Of a DNA stretch of 20,117 nucleotides, positions 12,631-20,017 are shown one piece after another (positions within the stretch are counted from its first letter, which is position 1; each line of letters opens with the position of its first letter). The translations under genes and the position numbers were made by a program. The stretch is from a virus. The stretch is from positions 1-20,117 of the IMG/VR virus record IMGVR_UViG_3300017769_000175. The stretch is one strand, 5' to 3'. The notes below the pieces were generated by a model. That model made no database searches and was not told the origin of the DNA. It worked only from the letters and a program-made list of their open reading frames with translations.

Positions 12631-14697
12631 TTACACCCTCGGCAAGTTAGTAGAAATCTGTGAATCTGTTACAGCCTTAGCCACGCGAAGCTCTGCTTCT
12701 GCTTGCAACTCTTGACGGCGTAGCTCCATTTCCATCTGCATCTTTTCGCGGTCAAGCATAAGCTGCTGTTCCATCTTCTCGCGTTGCAGCGCAATGTTCG
12801 CCTCAGCCTTCTGCTGCTCAAGAGCCTGTGCTGCCTGTGCTTTTTGCTGCTCAAGCTGCATAAGCTGCTGCATTTGCATTTGCTCTGGAGACATCTGTGG
12901 CGGCTGTTGAGCCTGCTGCTGCTGCATCATTTGTATCTGTTGTGGTGCATTAAAGAACTGGTCTGCATCCTTAAAGCCGCCAATCTCAGCAATGCTGCGA
13001 AGTGTATTAACGTACTGAGACATTGTAACAACGGGATTGTTTGGCCCTAACTGCTGCAAGATTTGCTCTTGTTTACCAGCAATCTGCGTCAGGAAAGCAA
13101 TCTTCTGCTCATCATCAGCCGTGCCAAGCCCAACCTGCACAACAACATCAAACTCGCTAGTCCATTCACGCGGGTCAATTGGCACAAAGTCATTACGCAG
13201 ACGCACGATACGCGGCTTGTTGTCGTACTTGGTGACTAGATGCAGAATGCCACGGAACAAATCCTTAACACCTGTCTCAGCCATTGTACGAGCATAGCTC
13301 TCTAACTTGACCTGTGCGCCTCTGACAGTCGCGCTAATGGCACTGGCTGTCGTAGACTGTAACGCATTTGCATCCAAACCCTGTGATGCCTTGCTCATAC
13401 CTGTGCGCTGTTCTTTTACGTTGTCCAGATAATCCATCAAAGGCCGGATTTCACCACCAACAGCAGTGCCTTGAATGGCCTGCACCATACCTGGCTGACG
13501 AGCGCGAATAATACCGCCAGCAGTACCTTCAAGCAAATCATCCAGATTCACCTGACCCTCAACAGCAACCATTCGTGGCAGAGTGCTTGTGTATACGCTG
13601 TCGAGGTACTGTCGCATCAGAGTAGACTTGATGACCTGTAAGTCCTCAGTCATATCATAGATGCTGCGTCCAATAAGGCGGTGTGGCATCAAAATCGGGC
13701 TAACAACGGCAAATGGAACGTGGTCAAACGGCTCGTTATGCAGGATGTGCGCTGCACCATCACCAATGGCACAAATACGGCGGCGTTCTGCAATACCGTC
13801 ACCATCAAAGTCCACATTCATAATGCACTCATAGTACACGACCTCACGCAATGTGGGGTCTGCTGCATCAGTGCCTGTTGTAGCCTCTAGGTCTTGGAAA
13901 CGATTGGTACGCTCTTGGTCTACGTCTAAGTCTGAAGTACCGGCGTGTGCCTCAATTTCATCTCTGTCGTAGCCCATTGCCACTAGGTCAGAAACTGTCA
14001 TTGTTGTGCGGTGCGCTACAAAATACGCTTCTTCTAGGCTAGTAGCCCTGCGATTTACCAGAAACTCCTCTGGCGGTACGTTTATGACTTTAATCTTGCC
14101 CTTGCGCTCTGTGACACGGACTGACAAGTCATAATTACTTTCAAGAGGAACCACCGTTCCATCTTCTTCCATATACGAGTTAATGACGGTTTCTTGCTGC
14201 TCAACCACATCAATATCTGGGTTAGACAAGAGTGCAGCCAGTTCATTCTCATCAAGTCCGTTATATTCTTCTTCAGTGACATTCTCTTCTTCCTCATAGA
14301 AATACTTTACAACGCCAAGACGGAATAACAACGCATCTTTGAACCAGTTATATAGAATTTTGTAGCCTTCATTATCGTGGTTGATAATGTAATTTACATA
14401 GTCACTAACCTGTTCAGCACGTTCTACATCCTCTGCGGTGCGTGGGCTAAAGCGCACATACTTGTCGTTTGCTGTAAACACACGCATCAGGTTTGGCATA
14501 ATAGCCTCAACCGTATCTGCTACCTCTGTGGTGACAACTGATGACCGGCCTTGAACCTCGTTTCCAAATGGCTCACCAAGGTAGAAATCCATTGCACGAA
14601 TGCGGTCTTGAGAAAATTCACTGTCGAAATGATTAAGAGCATCTGTTACTTCCGAAGAAACAATGCTGTTAAGCTGATACTCATCCATTTTTGGCAT
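12631..14697 (-). CDS. Portal protein, P22/SU10-like, 688 aa
   Basis: The portal forms the dodecameric ring through which DNA enters and leaves the head. I place the start at the ATG at 14697, where AAGGAA stands 7 bases upstream. An ATG ten codons earlier at 14727 has no such site. Recognisable pieces are MDFYLGEPFGNEVQGRSSVV, then VVTTEVADTVEAIMPNLMRV; a wing with RVTERKGKIKVINVPPEEFL; FDHVPFAVVSPILMPHRLIG and RSIYDMTEDLQVIKSTLMRQ; and the crown-side QGLDANALQSTTASAISATV. The last 110 residues are a Gln/Met/Glu coiled coil, the barrel seen in long P22-type portals. The stop is 2 bases before the next ATG. The start overlaps the preceding small gene by 17 bases. Confidence 0.9.
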   Translation of the reverse strand: MPKMDEYQLNSIVSSEVTDALNHFDSEFSQDRIRAMDFYLGEPFGNEVQGRSSVVTTEVADTVEAIMPNLMRVFTANDKYVRFSPRTAEDVERAEQVSDYVNYIINHDNEGYKILYNWFKDALLFRLGVVKYFYEEEENVTEEEYNGLDENELAALLSNPDIDVVEQQETVINSYMEEDGTVVPLESNYDLSVRVTERKGKIKVINVPPEEFLVNRRATSLEEAYFVAHRTTMTVSDLVAMGYDRDEIEAHAGTSDLDVDQERTNRFQDLEATTGTDAADPTLREVVYYECIMNVDFDGDGIAERRRICAIGDGAAHILHNEPFDHVPFAVVSPILMPHRLIGRSIYDMTEDLQVIKSTLMRQYLDSVYTSTLPRMVAVEGQVNLDDLLEGTAGGIIRARQPGMVQAIQGTAVGGEIRPLMDYLDNVKEQRTGMSKASQGLDANALQSTTASAISATVRGAQVKLESYARTMAETGVKDLFRGILHLVTKYDNKPRIVRLRNDFVPIDPREWTSEFDVVVQVGLGTADDEQKIAFLTQIAGKQEQILQQLGPNNPVVTMSQYVNTLRSIAEIGGFKDADQFFNAPQQIQMMQQQQAQQPPQMSPEQMQMQQLMQLEQQKAQAAQALEQQKAEANIALQREKMEQQLMLDREKMQMEMELRRQELQAEAELRVAKAVTDSQISTNLPRV

Positions 14698-14914
14698 TTG
14701 ATTTTTCCTTCGGCTTGGTTTGCCCATACATACAGCATCCAGAGCTTTTGCACATCTTCTTTGCTACGCAGCCCTTGCAAGTATCAAAACTTGGCAACGC
14801 TTCTACTTTCGCAGATGCAGAAACGGAAGCCTTAGCTATTGCTTGAGCTTCCTTACTTAGTTCTACTGGCCTGGGGCGTTGCACAGGCGGCCTTCTCATA
14901 ACTCTGGTAAACAT
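14681..14914 (-). CDS. Small cysteine-cluster protein upstream of portal, 77 aa
   Basis: The N-terminus is basic and Pro-rich (MFTRVMRRPPVQRPRPVELS), followed by an Ala/Ser/Lys helix. The cysteine cluster DTCKGCVAKKMCKSSGCC has Cys at 46, 49, 55, 60 and 61 (C-x2-C-x5-C-x4-C-C). This could bind zinc, but no family is recognised. It ends with a Lys/Asn/Glu tail. The ATG shares its A with the last base of the preceding stop (TAATG), so it is probably read by re-initiation. The stop lies within the start region of the portal gene. The presence of overlaps on both sides supports it as a real gene despite its size. Confidence 0.6.
   Translation of the reverse strand: MFTRVMRRPPVQRPRPVELSKEAQAIAKASVSASAKVEALPSFDTCKGCVAKKMCKSSGCCMYGQTKPKEKSNAKNG
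14705..14710 (-). promoter_or_regulatory. Ribosome binding site that decides the portal start
   Basis: AAGGAA on the minus strand ends 7 bases before the ATG at 14697. It lies inside the codons of the longer frame from 14727, which itself has only weak purine-rich sequence upstream. This favours the shorter, 688-residue portal. Confidence 0.6.
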
Positions 14915-15060
14915 TACTTATCGCTTGCGTAGTTTCCTGTCATTACCATCTTACCGTTTTTAACGGTATATGGAGACTTTGATGCAGCTTCGCGCCTGTC
15001 ACCAATCTTAGGCTTTGGCATTGGAATGGGTGTGCCTTTAGGTGTCTTGCCGTAGTTCAT
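14914..15060 (-). CDS. Small basic protein, 48 aa
   Basis: The translation runs MNYGKTPKGTPIPMPKPKIG, then DRREAASKSPYTVKNGKMVM and TGNYASDK. It is Lys/Pro-rich, has no hydrophobic core and may be disordered. Its ATG overlaps the stop of the gene before it in ATGA, and its own stop overlaps the next ATG in TAATG, so the frame is held at both ends by coupling signals. No family is recognised with confidence. It belongs to the tiny-gene cassette between TerL and portal. Confidence 0.6.
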   Translation of the reverse strand: MNYGKTPKGTPIPMPKPKIGDRREAASKSPYTVKNGKMVMTGNYASDK

Positions 15061-15245
15061 TTCTTTGCCGCTTTCTTTTTGGATGTCTTTTTAAGGATTC
15101 CTGTCATACCAATTCCTGTGCTTGTCATAACCGGCACAGACTCTGGTTCCTGCATAATAACAGGCTTTGCATCCTTTTTATAGGCTATACAACGTGCCTG
15201 TGCTTGACACCGGCTAGGATACGGACATTTATAACAGATACTCAT
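15057..15245 (-). CDS. Small four-cysteine protein, 62 aa
   Basis: I start it at the ATG at 15245, preceded by AAAGGAA about 7 bases upstream, rather than at the in-frame GTG 7 codons earlier. The N-terminus MSICYKCPYPSRCQAQARC has Cys at residues 4, 7, 13 and 19 (C-x2-C-x5-C-x5-C), a possible zinc or iron-sulfur knuckle. The middle is neutral and the C-terminus is a Lys-rich tail (GILKKTSKKKAAKK) that could touch nucleic acid. The stop overlaps the following ATG in ATGA. The family is unknown to me. Confidence 0.6.
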   Translation of the reverse strand: MSICYKCPYPSRCQAQARCIAYKKDAKPVIMQEPESVPVMTSTGIGMTGILKKTSKKKAAKK

Positions 15246-15246
15246 A

Positions 15247-15465
15247 CTATTTCCTTTTCTTGCCACTAGCCGTTACCGACCAGTTCACGCGTTGTGGGCC
15301 TGTCTTCTTCTTGGCCTCTTGCTTGCTAATACGGCCTGCAACACTTGCTGGCCTACAAGCAGGGTAAGCACGTTTCTCGCCTTTCTTGCGGCCACACGGC
15401 TTTCCTGTGTTTACGTCAACCCACTTGTCTTTGAACCATTTACCTAGTCCGGCTTGTGCTGGCAT
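15247..15465 (-). CDS. Small basic protein with WVDVNTGKPCGR motif, 72 aa
   Basis: The frame is open for 20 more codons upstream, but the ATG at 15465 overlaps the stop of the preceding gene in TAATG and has GGGGAAAG about 8 bases upstream, so I start there. The protein begins MPAQAGLGKWFKDKWVDVNT and continues GKPCGRKKGEKRAYPACRPA. It has a two-Cys core and a Lys/Arg-rich tail. From memory this WFKxKWVD...PCGR...YPxCRP pattern is widespread in marine phages (I associate it with DUF5872, not checked). A nucleic-acid-binding role is possible from the charge, but unproven. Confidence 0.65.
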   Translation of the reverse strand: MPAQAGLGKWFKDKWVDVNTGKPCGRKKGEKRAYPACRPASVAGRISKQEAKKKTGPQRVNWSVTASGKKRK

Positions 15466-16236: not shown

Positions 16237-17648
16237 ACCACCCATCCTGTGTTTGGCTTCAAGCTGCGCTTGCTACTATAACCTCTTGAGTAGCCGCCAG
16301 CAATGGCACCGTTTTCAGCAAAACTCAAGACAAAAGCATCTGCTACGTCTGGACTTCTCTGCCCTCTACGCTTCATCTCGTCTTTGCTCTCGACCTTCAG
16401 CTTACCATTAGATAGGTATTTATACCTAATCCCGGTGATTTCCTGTATTAACGTAGCATCATTTGGTATATGGCAATCCCTTGCCTCAAACCATTCACGA
16501 GCATTCCAGAACAATTCATCTCGCAGCCGGTTAAACCTGTCCTTCAAACTGGCAGTCTCCGACACAGATATAGCCACGGCAGGCAAATCAAGCTCTCTCA
16601 ACCTGTCAGCCAGCCCTGCACCAATGCCAATCGCATCAATATATATGCTTTGAGGGCGCATACGATAGTTGCAAGCCTCATACTCAGACAGCACAATACC
16701 TGCCATCTCCATAATATCCCTGCCCTGGTACGTCTTAATCGGCTCAACAAGCACATTACCTTGCCGTTTAGCGATAGCACTCCTGTCACCGCCAAATCTT
16801 GCAACGTCTACTCCCCATACAACCGGCGTAGTGGGTGAGGCTTCGACTTCTCTCTTAGTTGCCTCTTCAACCAAATAGAGCGGCAATAACACATCATCAG
16901 ATTGCGTAGGAAACTGACCAAGTACACGCACCCTGTAAACATTAGACTCTTCACCGTATTTGTCCTTCATCTCCTCAAGAAACTGCTCAGAAACCGTGGT
17001 TGCCTCGTGACAACTCACCGTCATCGTGTGCCAACGCTCACGCTGAGAATGGTGACTATCAAAGAAAAAACCTTCAGACCGCGTAGGATTTCCGCACATA
17101 ACCGTCTTCGCACCGGCAGTGGACATTGCACCCTCACCGACCTGGAAGACAACATCCGGTATACCTGACGCTTCCTCACACAAGAATAACATATTCTCTG
17201 AGTGAAAACCCTGCAAAGCCTCTGGGTTCTCCCTGCGACTTGTTCGCGCAACCGCAAAACTATCACTAGCCCCTTTGAGGCTAATCTTGTCGCTCTTGAA
17301 CTCCAGTAACTGCTTGAAACCCTCGGGCAGCTTCCTTGCCCATTTATCTATCTCAGTCCACAAAACATCACTCAACTGATGCGCTGTGTTTGCCGTCACA
17401 GCCACCTTGCAAGGATAATGCGTTACAAGCCACCACAACACCAACCAACTCTGAAACGCCGTCTTGCCGACACCGTGACCAGAAGCAATGCTAACCTTAT
17501 CGTGACTTGCAACGGCCTTGAGTGCCTCGGCTTGCCACGGCTGGGGTTCTGCCTTGAGAATGCTGGTAACGAATAAAACAGGGTCATTGTGCAACTGAAC
17601 AAGCAGGTCGGTGTTCTCAGTCTTTTTCAACTTCAACAGCCTCCGCAT
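16233..17648 (-). CDS. terL: Terminase large subunit (ATPase/nuclease), 471 aa
   Basis: TerL powers DNA packaging into the procapsid and cuts the concatemer. The ATPase P-loop is SIASGHGVGKT at residues 53-63. Walker B with the catalytic Glu is LFLCEEAS at about 154-161, and a coupling motif is near CGNPTRSEG (185-193). The RNase H-like nuclease has its acidic residues at D281 (VWGVDVARFGGD), D338 (IYIDAIGIG) and D434/D437 (SPDVADAF). The length is normal and all key residues are present, so it looks intact. I use the ATG at 17648; a TTG directly before it is also possible, with AGAGGA 8 bases upstream of that TTG. The start overlaps terS by 32 bases. Confidence 0.9.
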   Translation of the reverse strand: MRRLLKLKKTENTDLLVQLHNDPVLFVTSILKAEPQPWQAEALKAVASHDKVSIASGHGVGKTAFQSWLVLWWLVTHYPCKVAVTANTAHQLSDVLWTEIDKWARKLPEGFKQLLEFKSDKISLKGASDSFAVARTSRRENPEALQGFHSENMLFLCEEASGIPDVVFQVGEGAMSTAGAKTVMCGNPTRSEGFFFDSHHSQRERWHTMTVSCHEATTVSEQFLEEMKDKYGEESNVYRVRVLGQFPTQSDDVLLPLYLVEEATKREVEASPTTPVVWGVDVARFGGDRSAIAKRQGNVLVEPIKTYQGRDIMEMAGIVLSEYEACNYRMRPQSIYIDAIGIGAGLADRLRELDLPAVAISVSETASLKDRFNRLRDELFWNAREWFEARDCHIPNDATLIQEITGIRYKYLSNGKLKVESKDEMKRRGQRSPDVADAFVLSFAENGAIAGGYSRGYSSKRSLKPNTGWVV

Positions 17649-18081
17649 CAATGGTCTTTTCCTCTAGCCGCTGACGCTCTATCTGCGCCGCTGCCAGCTT
17701 CAACTCGTCAACAAAGCTTACAACCTTATGCTCGTGTTCGACTTTCTGGTTCTCGCCGTAAAACTTCGGATACAACTTCGCTGCTCGCCACTTGTAAGTA
17801 TCAATGACAACTCGCGCTTGCTGGGCGTCAAGCTCTCCATACTTCATAAGCTCAATAGCATCGTCAATATCATCATCAATCTTCTGGGCGCGAAGCTCCA
17901 TAGCGACCTTGTACTGGTCGCGGAAATCAGCGTCATCACGCAGCCACTTGCTAATCGTCATAAACGTAGGGATTTGCTTGTGAGTGCAAGCCTTACGAGC
18001 AGACATACCGTCAGAAACAAGCTCTATGAACTTCTTTTTGCCACGGTCTATCTCTTTCGGGTCAGTGATTTTACGCCCCAT
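17617..18081 (-). CDS. terS: Terminase small subunit, 154 aa
   Basis: The small subunit recognises phage DNA and presents it to TerL. The N-terminal part (MGRKITDPKEIDRGKKKFIE, then SDGMSARKACTHKQIPTFMT and ISKWLRDDADFRDQY) is a helix-turn-helix of the SARKAC...TISKWLRDD type seen in phage TerS proteins. A helical oligomerisation segment (RAQKIDDDIDDAIELM) is followed by KWRAAKLYPKFYG, a typical TerS motif, and a charged C-terminal tail likely to contact TerL. A strong AGAGGAG ribosome site is 8 bp upstream. It is the first gene of the minus-strand operon and is overlapped by terL. Confidence 0.85.
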   Translation of the reverse strand: MGRKITDPKEIDRGKKKFIELVSDGMSARKACTHKQIPTFMTISKWLRDDADFRDQYKVAMELRAQKIDDDIDDAIELMKYGELDAQQARVVIDTYKWRAAKLYPKFYGENQKVEHEHKVVSFVDELKLAAAQIERQRLEEKTIDAEAVEVEKD

Positions 18082-18146
18082 TTGGTACTCCTCTATTCGT
18101 CACATAGCAGACTTGATATAGCAGTGCAAGAAAACTTGCAACTTTT

Positions 18147-18191
18147 GGGGGTGTGGGGGTGGTTTTAGGCGTGGTAGAAAGAAGGGGGGGG
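18147..18191 (+). repeat. Plus-strand G-tracts (5, 5 and 8 G)
   Basis: GGGGG-TGT-GGGGG is followed after a purine-rich spacer by a run of eight G. The tracts lie upstream of terS on its template strand. They could form a four-stranded structure only with uneven loops, so they are weaker than the C-tract cluster at 18457-18504. Confidence 0.5.
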
Positions 18192-18204
18192 TGAGATGTG
18201 GACT

Positions 18205-18210
18205 ATTATA
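18205..18210 (-). promoter_or_regulatory. Candidate -10 box for the late operon
   Basis: TATAAT, a perfect sigma70-type -10 hexamer, is on the minus strand about 125 bases before the terS start. No matching -35 box stands at 17 bases (that place is G-rich), so it would need an activator or be a chance match in the AT-rich patch. Confidence 0.35.
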
Positions 18211-18221
18211 TATTTATGCCG

Positions 18222-18246
18222 CCCCCCGCGCAGATTCGATGGGGGG
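18222..18246 (+). repeat. CCCCCC / GGGGGG inverted repeat
   Basis: Six C and six G flank a 13-base loop (GCGCAGATTCGAT) that contains a GANTC site (GATTC). It could fold as a hairpin in single-stranded form. There is no uridine run on either side, so I do not call it a terminator. The strand is arbitrary. Confidence 0.4.
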
Positions 18247-18276
18247 TGTATCAGCGTATTAGCACATAAGCACACC

Positions 18277-18315
18277 AACATTATGCGACAAAGATAATAA
18301 ACATTATGCGACAAA
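18277..18315 (+). repeat. Perfect 16-base direct repeat, period 23
   Basis: AACATTATGCGACAAA occurs at 18277-18292 and again at 18300-18315, separated by seven bases (GATAATA). A spacing of 23 puts the copies about two helical turns apart, on nearly the same DNA face, as for paired operator sites, iterons or terminase-binding repeats. Neither repeat lies in a gene. Confidence 0.7.
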
Positions 18316-18430
18316 TGCCAGGCCGCCAGGTTGAGGCGTGACGGCTTGCAACGACTGCCGATGATGAATCATACACCGGAACCACCAACGCCAGCCAGTG
18401 AGCGAATATGAGCGATTGTCGCGCGTGTGG

Positions 18431-18439
18431 TGATATAAT
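18431..18439 (+). promoter_or_regulatory. Candidate extended -10 promoter, plus strand
   Basis: TGATATAAT contains the extended -10 dinucleotide TG one base before a perfect TATAAT. The region at -35 has no TTGACA match, which an extended -10 can tolerate. A transcript would start near 18446, run through the C-tract cluster and reach the GP88-like gene after about 175 bases. Confidence 0.45.
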
Positions 18440-18456
18440 ACCGCATTGAGGTGATG

Positions 18457-18504
18457 CCCCCTAATCCCCTATCAAATCCCCTAACCCATCCCCATCCCAT
18501 CCCC
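18457..18504 (-). repeat. G-quadruplex-prone cluster on the minus strand
   Basis: Seven G-tracts of 3 to 5 follow each other. The tightest four, GGGGATGGGATGGGGATGGG, have two-base AT loops, a strong quadruplex pattern. The plus strand is correspondingly C-rich, with repeated ATCCC/CCCAT units. Confidence 0.6.
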
Positions 18505-18552
18505 TTACCAACCGCGCTAGCCGTTGCAAGTTTTTCTATATTATCTGCCATT

Positions 18553-18581
18553 TTGCGCTTGCATTGTGTCAATTATATATT
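18553..18581 (+). promoter_or_regulatory. Candidate sigma70-like promoter for the plus-strand module
   Basis: TTGCGC and TATATT are separated by 17 bases, 40 bases before the start codon at 18622. The -10 matches 5 of 6 consensus bases, the -35 only 3 of 6. The AT-rich context (AATTATATATTAACATATAT) supports melting but also raises the chance of a false match. Confidence 0.4.
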
Positions 18582-18621
18582 AACATATATATGAAGCATT
18601 ACAGAAAAGGGAACCAAAACA

Positions 18622-19389
18622 ATGAAACAATTGACCAAGACACAAATGGCCGTGATAGCTGGAAAATCCGTCTATCATTCGCTTCGCGTCAAATCCGTTG
18701 CCGATGGTATGGCAAAGACAGAACGCGCTTTGAAAGCTTCAACAAATGTAAAGCTTGGCAAGCGCGTCACGAAGGGCAAGCTTGCTGGCTTTCCCATTCT
18801 TACATTGACACTAGAAGAACGCGCCACTTGTCCGGCGTCTTGCATTCATTATGCTGATTGTTACGGCAATAATATGATGAACGCCACCCGCTATGCCGCC
18901 GATGAAGCATTGTTGCAGCAAATCGAATCTGATTTGTCTTTCTATCAATCAAAGCACCCGAACGGCTTTCTTGTCCGTTTGCACGTTCTTGGCGATTTTT
19001 TCAGCGTTGCCTATGTCGCAAAATGGGCGAAATGGCTGTCAATGTTTCCGGCTTTGCACGTTTATGGGTACACTGCCAACCAATATGACGCTATTGACAG
19101 CAAAGAACGCGCCATTGGCGAAGCTTTGCTTTCGTTGCGTTTGGCTTGCGGCATTCGCTTTGCCGTCCGGTTTTCCGGCTCATATAGCGATTCATTCGCT
19201 GCATTATCGCAAGACGATGAACGAAGCAATGCCTTGCTAGCTGAAAAGAAAGCTTTCCTTTGCCCTACGCAAATCAGCAAGGAAACCGGCGAGCTTGCAA
19301 AGAAAGACGAAGAGACAATTTTGCCGGATTGCGGTTCTTGCGGCCTATGCTGGCAAGCTTCAAAGCCGGTTGTGTTCTTAACCCATTAG
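18622..19389 (+). CDS. GP88-like phage cysteine protein, 255 aa
   Basis: This resembles the phage 'gene product 88' family, named from mycobacteriophage; its function is unknown. An N-terminal cysteine motif, ERATCPASCIHYADCYGN, has Cys 70, 74 and 80. A central RLHVLGDFFSVAYVAKWAKW (119-138) is followed by a YGYT strand and VRFSGSYSDS. The C-terminal module has Cys 214 (FLCPTQ) and CGSCGLC at 237-243, ending VVFLTH. Seven well-placed cysteines in two groups suggest metal or an iron-sulfur cluster. The C-x3-C-x5-C spacing differs from the classic radical-SAM C-x3-C-x2-C, so I do not claim that chemistry. AAAGGGA precedes the ATG by about 9 bases. It is the first gene of the plus-strand module and looks complete. 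Confidence 0.75.
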   Translation: MKQLTKTQMAVIAGKSVYHSLRVKSVADGMAKTERALKASTNVKLGKRVTKGKLAGFPILTLTLEERATCPASCIHYADCYGNNMMNATRYAADEALLQQIESDLSFYQSKHPNGFLVRLHVLGDFFSVAYVAKWAKWLSMFPALHVYGYTANQYDAIDSKERAIGEALLSLRLACGIRFAVRFSGSYSDSFAALSQDDERSNALLAEKKAFLCPTQISKETGELAKKDEETILPDCGSCGLCWQASKPVVFLTH

Positions 19390-19403: not shown

Positions 19404-19517
19404 ATGTATGTATACCGCAACAAACAAGGCCATATCGTCAAATTTATTAAGCCTGTATCGCGTAAAGCGCAAGCCATACTAGGCTTTAAAAACATACCAC
19501 AAAAGCGAAAGGCATAA
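19404..19517 (+). CDS. Small basic peptide, 37 aa
   Basis: A longer open frame reaches back into the GP88-like gene, but the ATG at 19404 is preceded by AAAGGA at about 9 bases and is the credible start. The product, MYVYRNKQGHIVKFIKPVSR then KAQAILGFKNIPQKRKA, is very basic with an amphipathic centre. No family is recognised. It lies 14 bases after the GP88-like stop and just before two hairpins. A small regulator or host-directed peptide is possible but not shown. Confidence 0.55.
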   Translation: MYVYRNKQGHIVKFIKPVSRKAQAILGFKNIPQKRKA

Positions 19518-19616: not shown

Positions 19617-19847
19617 ATGACACATCACTATTTGATTTGGGGAAAATATGGCAGCGATAAATTAGAGTCACTGTTAGTCGAAACCGTTAACGGTGGTTAC
19701 ATCCAGACAATAGCGCAAGCAAACGCAATTATTCGCTATTGGCAAGAAAAGGCTAACGATGGAATGGTTGAAAAAGTCAGAGATTGGCGCATTGCTAAGG
19801 TTGATTATTCTAATCAGCCGGATTTTGCTGGCACGATTAACGTATAA
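19617..19847 (+). CDS. Small protein of unknown function, 76 aa
   Basis: The product begins MTHHYLIWGKYGSDKLESLL and continues VETVNGGYIQTIAQANAIIR, YWQEKANDGMVEKVRDWRIA and KVDYSNQPDFAGTINV. It has a beta start, a central helix (TIAQANAIIRYWQEKA) and a closing strand, a compact alpha/beta look. There is no cysteine, signal or membrane segment. AAAGGA stands about 9 bases before the ATG. The next gene follows after 11 bases, so they are probably cotranscribed. No family is recognised. Confidence 0.65.
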   Translation: MTHHYLIWGKYGSDKLESLLVETVNGGYIQTIAQANAIIRYWQEKANDGMVEKVRDWRIAKVDYSNQPDFAGTINV

Positions 19848-19858
19848 GGGGAAAACCA

Positions 19859-20017
19859 ATGCAAAAAACTAATTACGATTGCGGCAATTGTCACCACCAC
19901 TGGCAAGCCGACAAGCTGCAAATAGAATGCCCCGAATGCGAGTCGTTCTACATCGCCGCGACTAACGAATGGGATTATCACGACAGCCGCGAACCACTCT
20001 TTGAAGACGTAACATAA
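19859..20017 (+). CDS. Small zinc-ribbon-like protein, 52 aa
   Basis: The frame gives MQKTNYDCGNCHHHWQADKL then QIECPECESFYIAATNEWDY and an acidic tail. Two CxxC knuckles (Cys 8/11 and 24/27), each followed by aromatic or His residues, are separated by 12 residues, the layout of a rubredoxin-like zinc ribbon. Such small phage proteins may bind nucleic acid or a host enzyme. AAGGGG lies about 8 bases upstream. The stop overlaps the next ATG in TAATG. Confidence 0.65.
   Translation: MQKTNYDCGNCHHHWQADKLQIECPECESFYIAATNEWDYHDSREPLFEDVT

Follow-up and report, generated by a model that had tools for sequence, protein, structure and literature searches.

The gene at positions 18622–19389 on the plus strand of the viral DNA stretch analysed here (the window, 20,117 bases) encodes a member of the GP88 family, which we tentatively explain as an early-expressed phage enzyme that resembles radical-SAM enzymes and acts on DNA. 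In this explanation a radical-SAM-like fold carrying a metal cluster is probable, and once this part is granted we lean towards DNA as the substrate. We will present the evidence from the conservation of the protein, from structure models of two distant branches and from the gene fusions and neighbourhoods, and weigh it against three other explanations.

The reading frame starts with ATG and encodes 255 amino acids followed by a stop codon. Its product, called P0001 below, belongs to the GP88 family of Pfam (PF17338) with an E-value of 1e-11 and a whole-protein score of 45.6 bits, to be compared with the curated cut-off of 24.4, which bears out the family assignment made in the preliminary description. 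Since the start methionine is shared by P0001 and its close relatives and dN/dS is ca 0.05–0.11 relative to 17 of them, with several values being upper bounds (dS saturated), we consider this a real gene under purifying selection; L022 and L024 were left out of the calculation, as an indel puts them out of register. The seven cysteines previously noticed in two groups around a VLGDFFS core are confirmed by the reading frame. All on the plus strand, the first group, C70-x3-C74-x5-C80, lies at 18829–18861, and the core (residues 122–128) is part of RLHVLGDFFS (residues 119–128, at 18976–19005). The second group (residues 214–243, at 19261–19350) consists of C214, within CPTQ, and C237-x2-C240-x2-C243, within CGSCGLC.

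The family is indeed, as had been stated, common in phages and unexplained. It was found in at least about 600 stretches in each of three viral-contig scans, and a tblastn search places it in 151 Mycobacterium phage records. No function is described in open-licence PMC papers for GP88 (PF17338), DUF7227 (PF23872) or the "gene product 88" domain names. In the annotated phage records examined, the gene is called a hypothetical protein, is named after a helix-turn-helix (HTH) domain or, once, is labelled a DNA methyltransferase. The last case is Tunturi_1 gp84 (L192:5752–6444, plus strand), whose protein has the GP88 cysteines; the label is probably a transferred one, or a mis-annotation. NCBIfam gave 0 matches, no GP88 match was found in plasmids, and none of P0001, P0002 and P0003 matches a PADLOC-DB defence model at E ≤ 1. 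An Mpo1-like identity for P0001 was discarded (Pfam match at 0.02, under the cut-off), and so was the "gp88" of ICP1, which, as far as the available part of the source goes (PMC8263062), has the number in common with GP88.

The preliminary description had staked its proposal on the cysteines being conserved in the family, and conserved they are. In an alignment of 87 non-redundant viral members, taken from among the matches listed, all seven are present in 87/87. Equally invariant are K44, L64, E66, G82, R90, W135, G149, R183, S185, P215 and F252, together with R119, L120, H121, G124, D125 and F126, the conservation of the stretch R119–F126 being partly ascertained, as RLHxLGDF itself served in retrieval; cysteines were likewise part of some of the patterns used. 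The second cysteine group was absent from the retrieval patterns of two of the viral-contig scans, and both groups are found in 20/20 of those members that match no cysteine-containing pattern (20/87). The C-terminal last residue, H255 (19384–19386, plus strand), is kept in 86/87 viral members and is missing in the mycobacteriophage branch. P0001 has an eighth cysteine, C176, which is conserved in only 16/87. We have also considered copies in bacterial genomes, for which the GP88 reading frame was obtained from 46/49 loci (L241 and L242 were left out). All 46 have the seven cysteines; the proline of CPxQ is replaced by leucine in two, and in one an intein splits the first group.

Although GP88 is otherwise kept, its first group drifts in spacing. 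It is C-x3-C-x5-C in 84/87 of the viral members and C-x2-C-x5-C in 3/87, C-x6-C-x3-C in 54/54 non-redundant members of the mycobacteriophage branch, and C-x3-C-x6-C in six of the seven members of the Tunturi_1 branch, the seventh being longer. The four cysteines of the second group, on the other hand, are present in 54/54 and 7/7 members of these two branches. The three branches are ca 21–25% identical, and what is kept across all of them includes the first and third cysteines of the first group, CY, R-x-H-x2-G-D, a tyrosine in the YT strand, a serine in strand 4 and all four second-group cysteines. With respect to named families, the window protein is a member of GP88 and does not differ from it; in the alignment A4, 84/84 members match GP88 and 69/84 match DUF7227 at E ≤ 1. 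The "Gene product 88 domain-containing" relatives named in BFVD include proteins of Halogranum tailed virus 1 and of a Nitrosopumilus spindle-shaped virus, and the family therefore appears to span archaeal viruses.

Structures were predicted with AlphaFold2 for P0001 (pLDDT 95.3, pTM 0.91) and for L275 of the mycobacteriophage branch (pLDDT 92.8, pTM 0.90). The order of elements is the same in both models, namely strand, first cysteine group, long strand, G-D motif, helix, YT strand, helix and S strand; the second cysteine group then lies close to the C-terminal end. In P0001, the first group follows a predicted strand at residues 58–62, while RLHVLGDFFS comprises the end of the predicted strand 116–120 and the G-D motif. 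In radical-SAM enzymes, the "GE" motif sits after strand 2. With the first cysteine group after the first barrel strand and G-D after the second, both models would reproduce the placement of the radical-SAM cluster loop and of this "GE" motif, which is named in PMC9692996.

The comparison with radical-SAM barrels proposed in the preliminary description was carried out with VIA-align, and the models of the two distant branches both rank radical-SAM enzymes first. For P0001 such enzymes, the class being assigned from the entry titles, occupy 11 of the best 12 rows, the best match being the PFL-activating enzyme 8fo0 (Z 5.6, rmsd 4.0, 153 aligned), and for L275 they occupy 18 of the best 20, led by the spore photoproduct lyase 4fhg (Z 7.2, rmsd 3.6, 164 aligned); all values for both models are below 8, where Z according to the tool's note may reflect only a common arrangement. 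Other matches are viperins (5.0), QueE (4.9), RlmN (4.8) and LIAS (4.7) for P0001, with RsbS placed second among its rows, and viperin (7.0), QueE (6.6), EpeE (6.3) and NifB (6.0) for L275, for which the scores of unrelated barrels go up to Z 6.4 and so come within 1 of the best. SDR reductases, chitinases and cellobiohydrolases also came up as possible structural kin and were taken as noise from a common layout. In BFVD, the matches of the P0001 model begin with GP88 relatives, behind which come a Gp37/Gp68-like protein (E 6e-3), one resembling QueE and one with a radical-SAM core.

The same relationship was sought by other means. Foldseek against the PDB left both models without a match at E ≤ 0.001, the Pfam Radical_SAM family (PF04055) is not among the matches of P0001 at E ≤ 10, and the canonical CX3CX2C cluster motif is absent from the 87 viral members and from the two distant branches. 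A sequence search for a relative of solved structure found none for P0001 and chance rows only for the profiles A4 and A7. Four hhalign runs of GP88 against DUF5131 and against MoaA were not significant (probability 0.2–0.5%); the top local alignment of two runs pairs GDFFS with SDLFH, or the first cysteine group with the MoaA motif, which at P 0.2–0.4 counts for nothing. The earlier idea of an iron–sulfur enzyme with non-standard spacing is thus upheld in part, in that the cysteines are conserved and two models rank radical-SAM enzymes first, whereas the Z values stay below 8 and the profile–profile tests are negative. The agreement between models of two proteins that are ca 21% identical is suggestive of a radical-SAM likeness, keeping in mind that the models are not wholly independent, as seven of the 68 rows in the A7 alignment behind the L275 model come from the main branch, P0001 being one of them. 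Taken together, the results support the view that GP88 works like a radical-SAM enzyme, and we do not file it as a member of the superfamily.

A mechanism can be sketched on this basis. The loop of the first group (C70, C74, C80) would hold a site-differentiated [4Fe-4S] cluster, in which SAM would bind to the one iron left open. SAM would be held by the G-D loop that follows strand 2, possibly also by R183 and S185, which belong to the R183-F-S185 segment (19168–19176, plus strand) in the predicted fourth strand (residues 180–185). One-electron reduction would then cleave SAM to yield a 5'-deoxyadenosyl radical. The four-cysteine group may hold an auxiliary iron–sulfur cluster or zinc. DNA-binding modules, either fused or supplied by partners, would bring GP88 to DNA, where it might install a carbon-centred base modification, for anti-restriction or marking, or repair a lesion in roughly the manner of spore photoproduct lyase.

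Spore photoproduct lyase, the top structural match of the L275 model, illustrates by analogy that a radical-SAM fold can act on DNA. It differs from GP88 in the spacing of the first group and in that GP88 has a second, four-cysteine group. Spore photoproduct lyase also has an additional cysteine that acts as hydrogen donor; no eighth cysteine is conserved in GP88, and its last step would therefore have to be different. The PFL-activating enzyme, viperin and QueE carry CX3CX2C or known variants of it. They are top structural matches of the P0001 model (Z 4.7–5.6) but only ca 10–12% identical to GP88 over the aligned part. DUF5131, or Gp37/Gp68 (PF07505), is linked to phages, its conserved motifs GC..C-x2-CYA and SDLF resemble CYG and GDF of GP88, and it includes the Gp37/Gp68-like BFVD match mentioned above. 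When 20 genomes were searched, GP88 and DUF5131 were found on the same contig, 3–45 kb apart, in 5/9 of the DUF5131 genomes (G002, G004, G006, G010 and G012). The DUF5131 alignment A5, however, has no conserved second cysteine group, and hhalign between the two families gives a probability of 0.3%, with small profiles (8 vs 84 and 68 sequences). The non-canonical radical-SAM enzyme Dph1–Dph2, likened here by description, offers a precedent only, as according to PMC11048331 it carries out radical chemistry with SAM although its cysteines do not form CX3CX2C, and its motif spacing is unrelated to that of GP88.

We now turn to the evidence that concerns the target. In many relatives, GP88 makes up the C-terminal portion of a larger protein. 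Among 23 N-extended members, chosen by length and scanned for HTH domains, an HTH model is at or above the Pfam cut-off in six, namely P0004 (Ruegeria phage 45A6), L182 (only when its N-terminus is scanned alone), L198, L211, L218 and L239. In another seven, an HTH model matches at E ≤ 0.01 but stays under the cut-off, two of these matches being GcrA-like, while none was found in the other 10, nor in P0001 itself in the Pfam search. As the HTH types differ (HTH_23, MarR, GcrA, sigma-70 region 4 and LexA), the fusion has probably arisen several times. In Thalassobaculum litoreum (L211:5062–7338, plus strand), a single 759-residue frame combines GP88 with a MarR-like winged HTH ahead of it and a GcrA-like HTH at the C-terminus.

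The neighbouring genes point to DNA as well. A recurrent replication/recombination operon in 13/87 loci has the order primase/VapE-like, PD-(D/E)XK nuclease, GP88, SNF2 helicase, Pam3 gp33-like and Pam3 gp34-like, with not every gene being present in every locus; 5/87 loci gave no neighbourhood, the crude gene caller having masked GP88. In raw counts, Pfam C5-methylase matches account for 9/258 neighbour proteins (3/84, 2/90 and 4/84), and a local search of our own for these enzymes near GP88 found fewer, in 3/133 loci. Also present, again as raw occurrence, are N6/N4 methylases, MT-A70, primases, DnaA, sliding clamps and helicases, and GcrA genes occur among the neighbours as well. These fusions and neighbours make DNA the favoured target of GP88, by guilt by association and not by chemistry. 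As a separate observation, a CsrA-like gene (L119:278–481, plus strand; PF02599, 35.9 bits) lies upstream of the primase/nuclease/GP88/helicase operon, in a cluster that spans 7/87 loci.

One prophage copy singles out the cysteine loop. In a Caulobacterales MAG (L238:4633–6927, plus strand), the GP88 frame reads CPRSCAVWAD, then an intein of about 255 residues (recognised by eye), then CYGNAMPYARR. The intein begins CLAPGTRILTADLQWTPVEAL and ends FLAHN, and its insertion point lies immediately ahead of the first group's third cysteine, the equivalent of C80. Inteins tend to favour active-site motifs of nucleic-acid enzymes. The insertion is suggestive in this respect, as one case that carries no statistic; a pattern scan of the retrieved loci found no second intein. 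The L238 intein also contains a stretch resembling a homing-endonuclease motif.

In the window, GP88 stands at the head of the plus-strand module, as had been described. The minus-strand terminase-type genes end at 18081, about 540 bases before it, with a 154-residue reading frame that by eye is terminase-small-subunit-like (17617–18081, minus strand), marking the end of the late module in the same arrangement as in L001 and L009. Terminase-type genes on the minus strand followed by GP88 on the plus strand recur, judged by eye, in L001, L009, L059, L062, L100, L101 and L185, among others. The intergenic stretch 18082–18621 separates the divergent late and early modules; its plus strand gave no match to a sigma-70-like promoter, and promoter and terminator scans around GP88 showed no excess over shuffled sequences. 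In the T7-like Roseobacter phage CRP-114, GP88 is gene 1, with a protein 66% identical to P0001. The early region of phages of this type is called a host takeover module in PMC11092137, the available part of which does not mention the GP88 gene. From its position, GP88 is presumably expressed early.

Three other explanations have to be weighed. Viperin and QueE act on nucleotides or nucleotide precursors, and they rank beside spore photoproduct lyase or the PFL-activating enzyme in both models. GP88 could accordingly be a radical-SAM-type enzyme with a target other than DNA, either the nucleotide pool or a host protein or tRNA that GP88, made early, would modify to disarm the host, in which case the DNA-binding fusions would serve autoregulation. 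Its place as gene 1 of CRP-114 would suit such a role, the early region of these phages being called the host takeover module in PMC11092137. The HTH domains, which flank GP88 on one side or, as in L211, on both, and the recombination operon fit DNA better, however, and we regard a non-DNA target as unlikely, if a serious contender. The fusions are also compatible with a metal-stabilised, DNA-associated regulator or scaffold with a barrel-like fold that holds zinc or a redox-inert iron–sulfur cluster and performs no SAM chemistry. Such a structural role would agree with the variable spacing of the first group, and also with the C-x2-C-x2-C of the second, which resembles common structural sites. 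It is less easily reconciled with K44, E66, R90, R119, H121, D125 and R183, which are present in 87/87 and look catalytic or ligand-binding, or with an intein in the cysteine loop, and we find it distinctly unlikely.

The radical-SAM likeness might, finally, come from nothing but the common (beta-alpha) layout, with GP88 being another metal-site barrel enzyme, like IspG, methionine synthase or the amidohydrolases. All three are among the structural matches of the L275 model, and the Z values are middling. The concentration of radical-SAM rows at the top for two models, of proteins as different as these, makes this improbable.

Returning to the DNA-directed radical enzyme, a more far-reaching version of it is possible but doubtful. 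GP88 would then constitute a large, unrecognised, virus-borne radical-SAM-like branch with at least four cysteine spacings and interchangeable HTH tethers, performing radical chemistry on DNA, by which a base modification (or a lesion) is installed or removed as infection begins or while replication is under way. If the enzyme is DNA-directed, phages would possess a radical chemistry on DNA for which no description of an assay came to our notice. The copies in mycobacteriophages, with their workable laboratory host, would then make it directly testable. The variable cysteine spacing on a kept fold would, if real, be a natural series for the drift of a SAM-radical motif.

Some smaller reading frames of the window should also be mentioned. 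Downstream of GP88, on the plus strand, are frames of 37 residues (19404–19517), with no family match, and 76 residues (19617–19847), with no convincing one. Between the portal-like and terminase-like genes, two small cysteine-rich frames on the minus strand (14681–14914 and 15057–15266) have a similar C-x2-C-x5-C and may be paralogues. Further downstream of GP88, a small frame on the plus strand (19859–20017) that starts MQKTNYDCGNCHHHW has two C-x2-C pairs and is zinc-ribbon-like, with several ribbon families matching below the cut-off.
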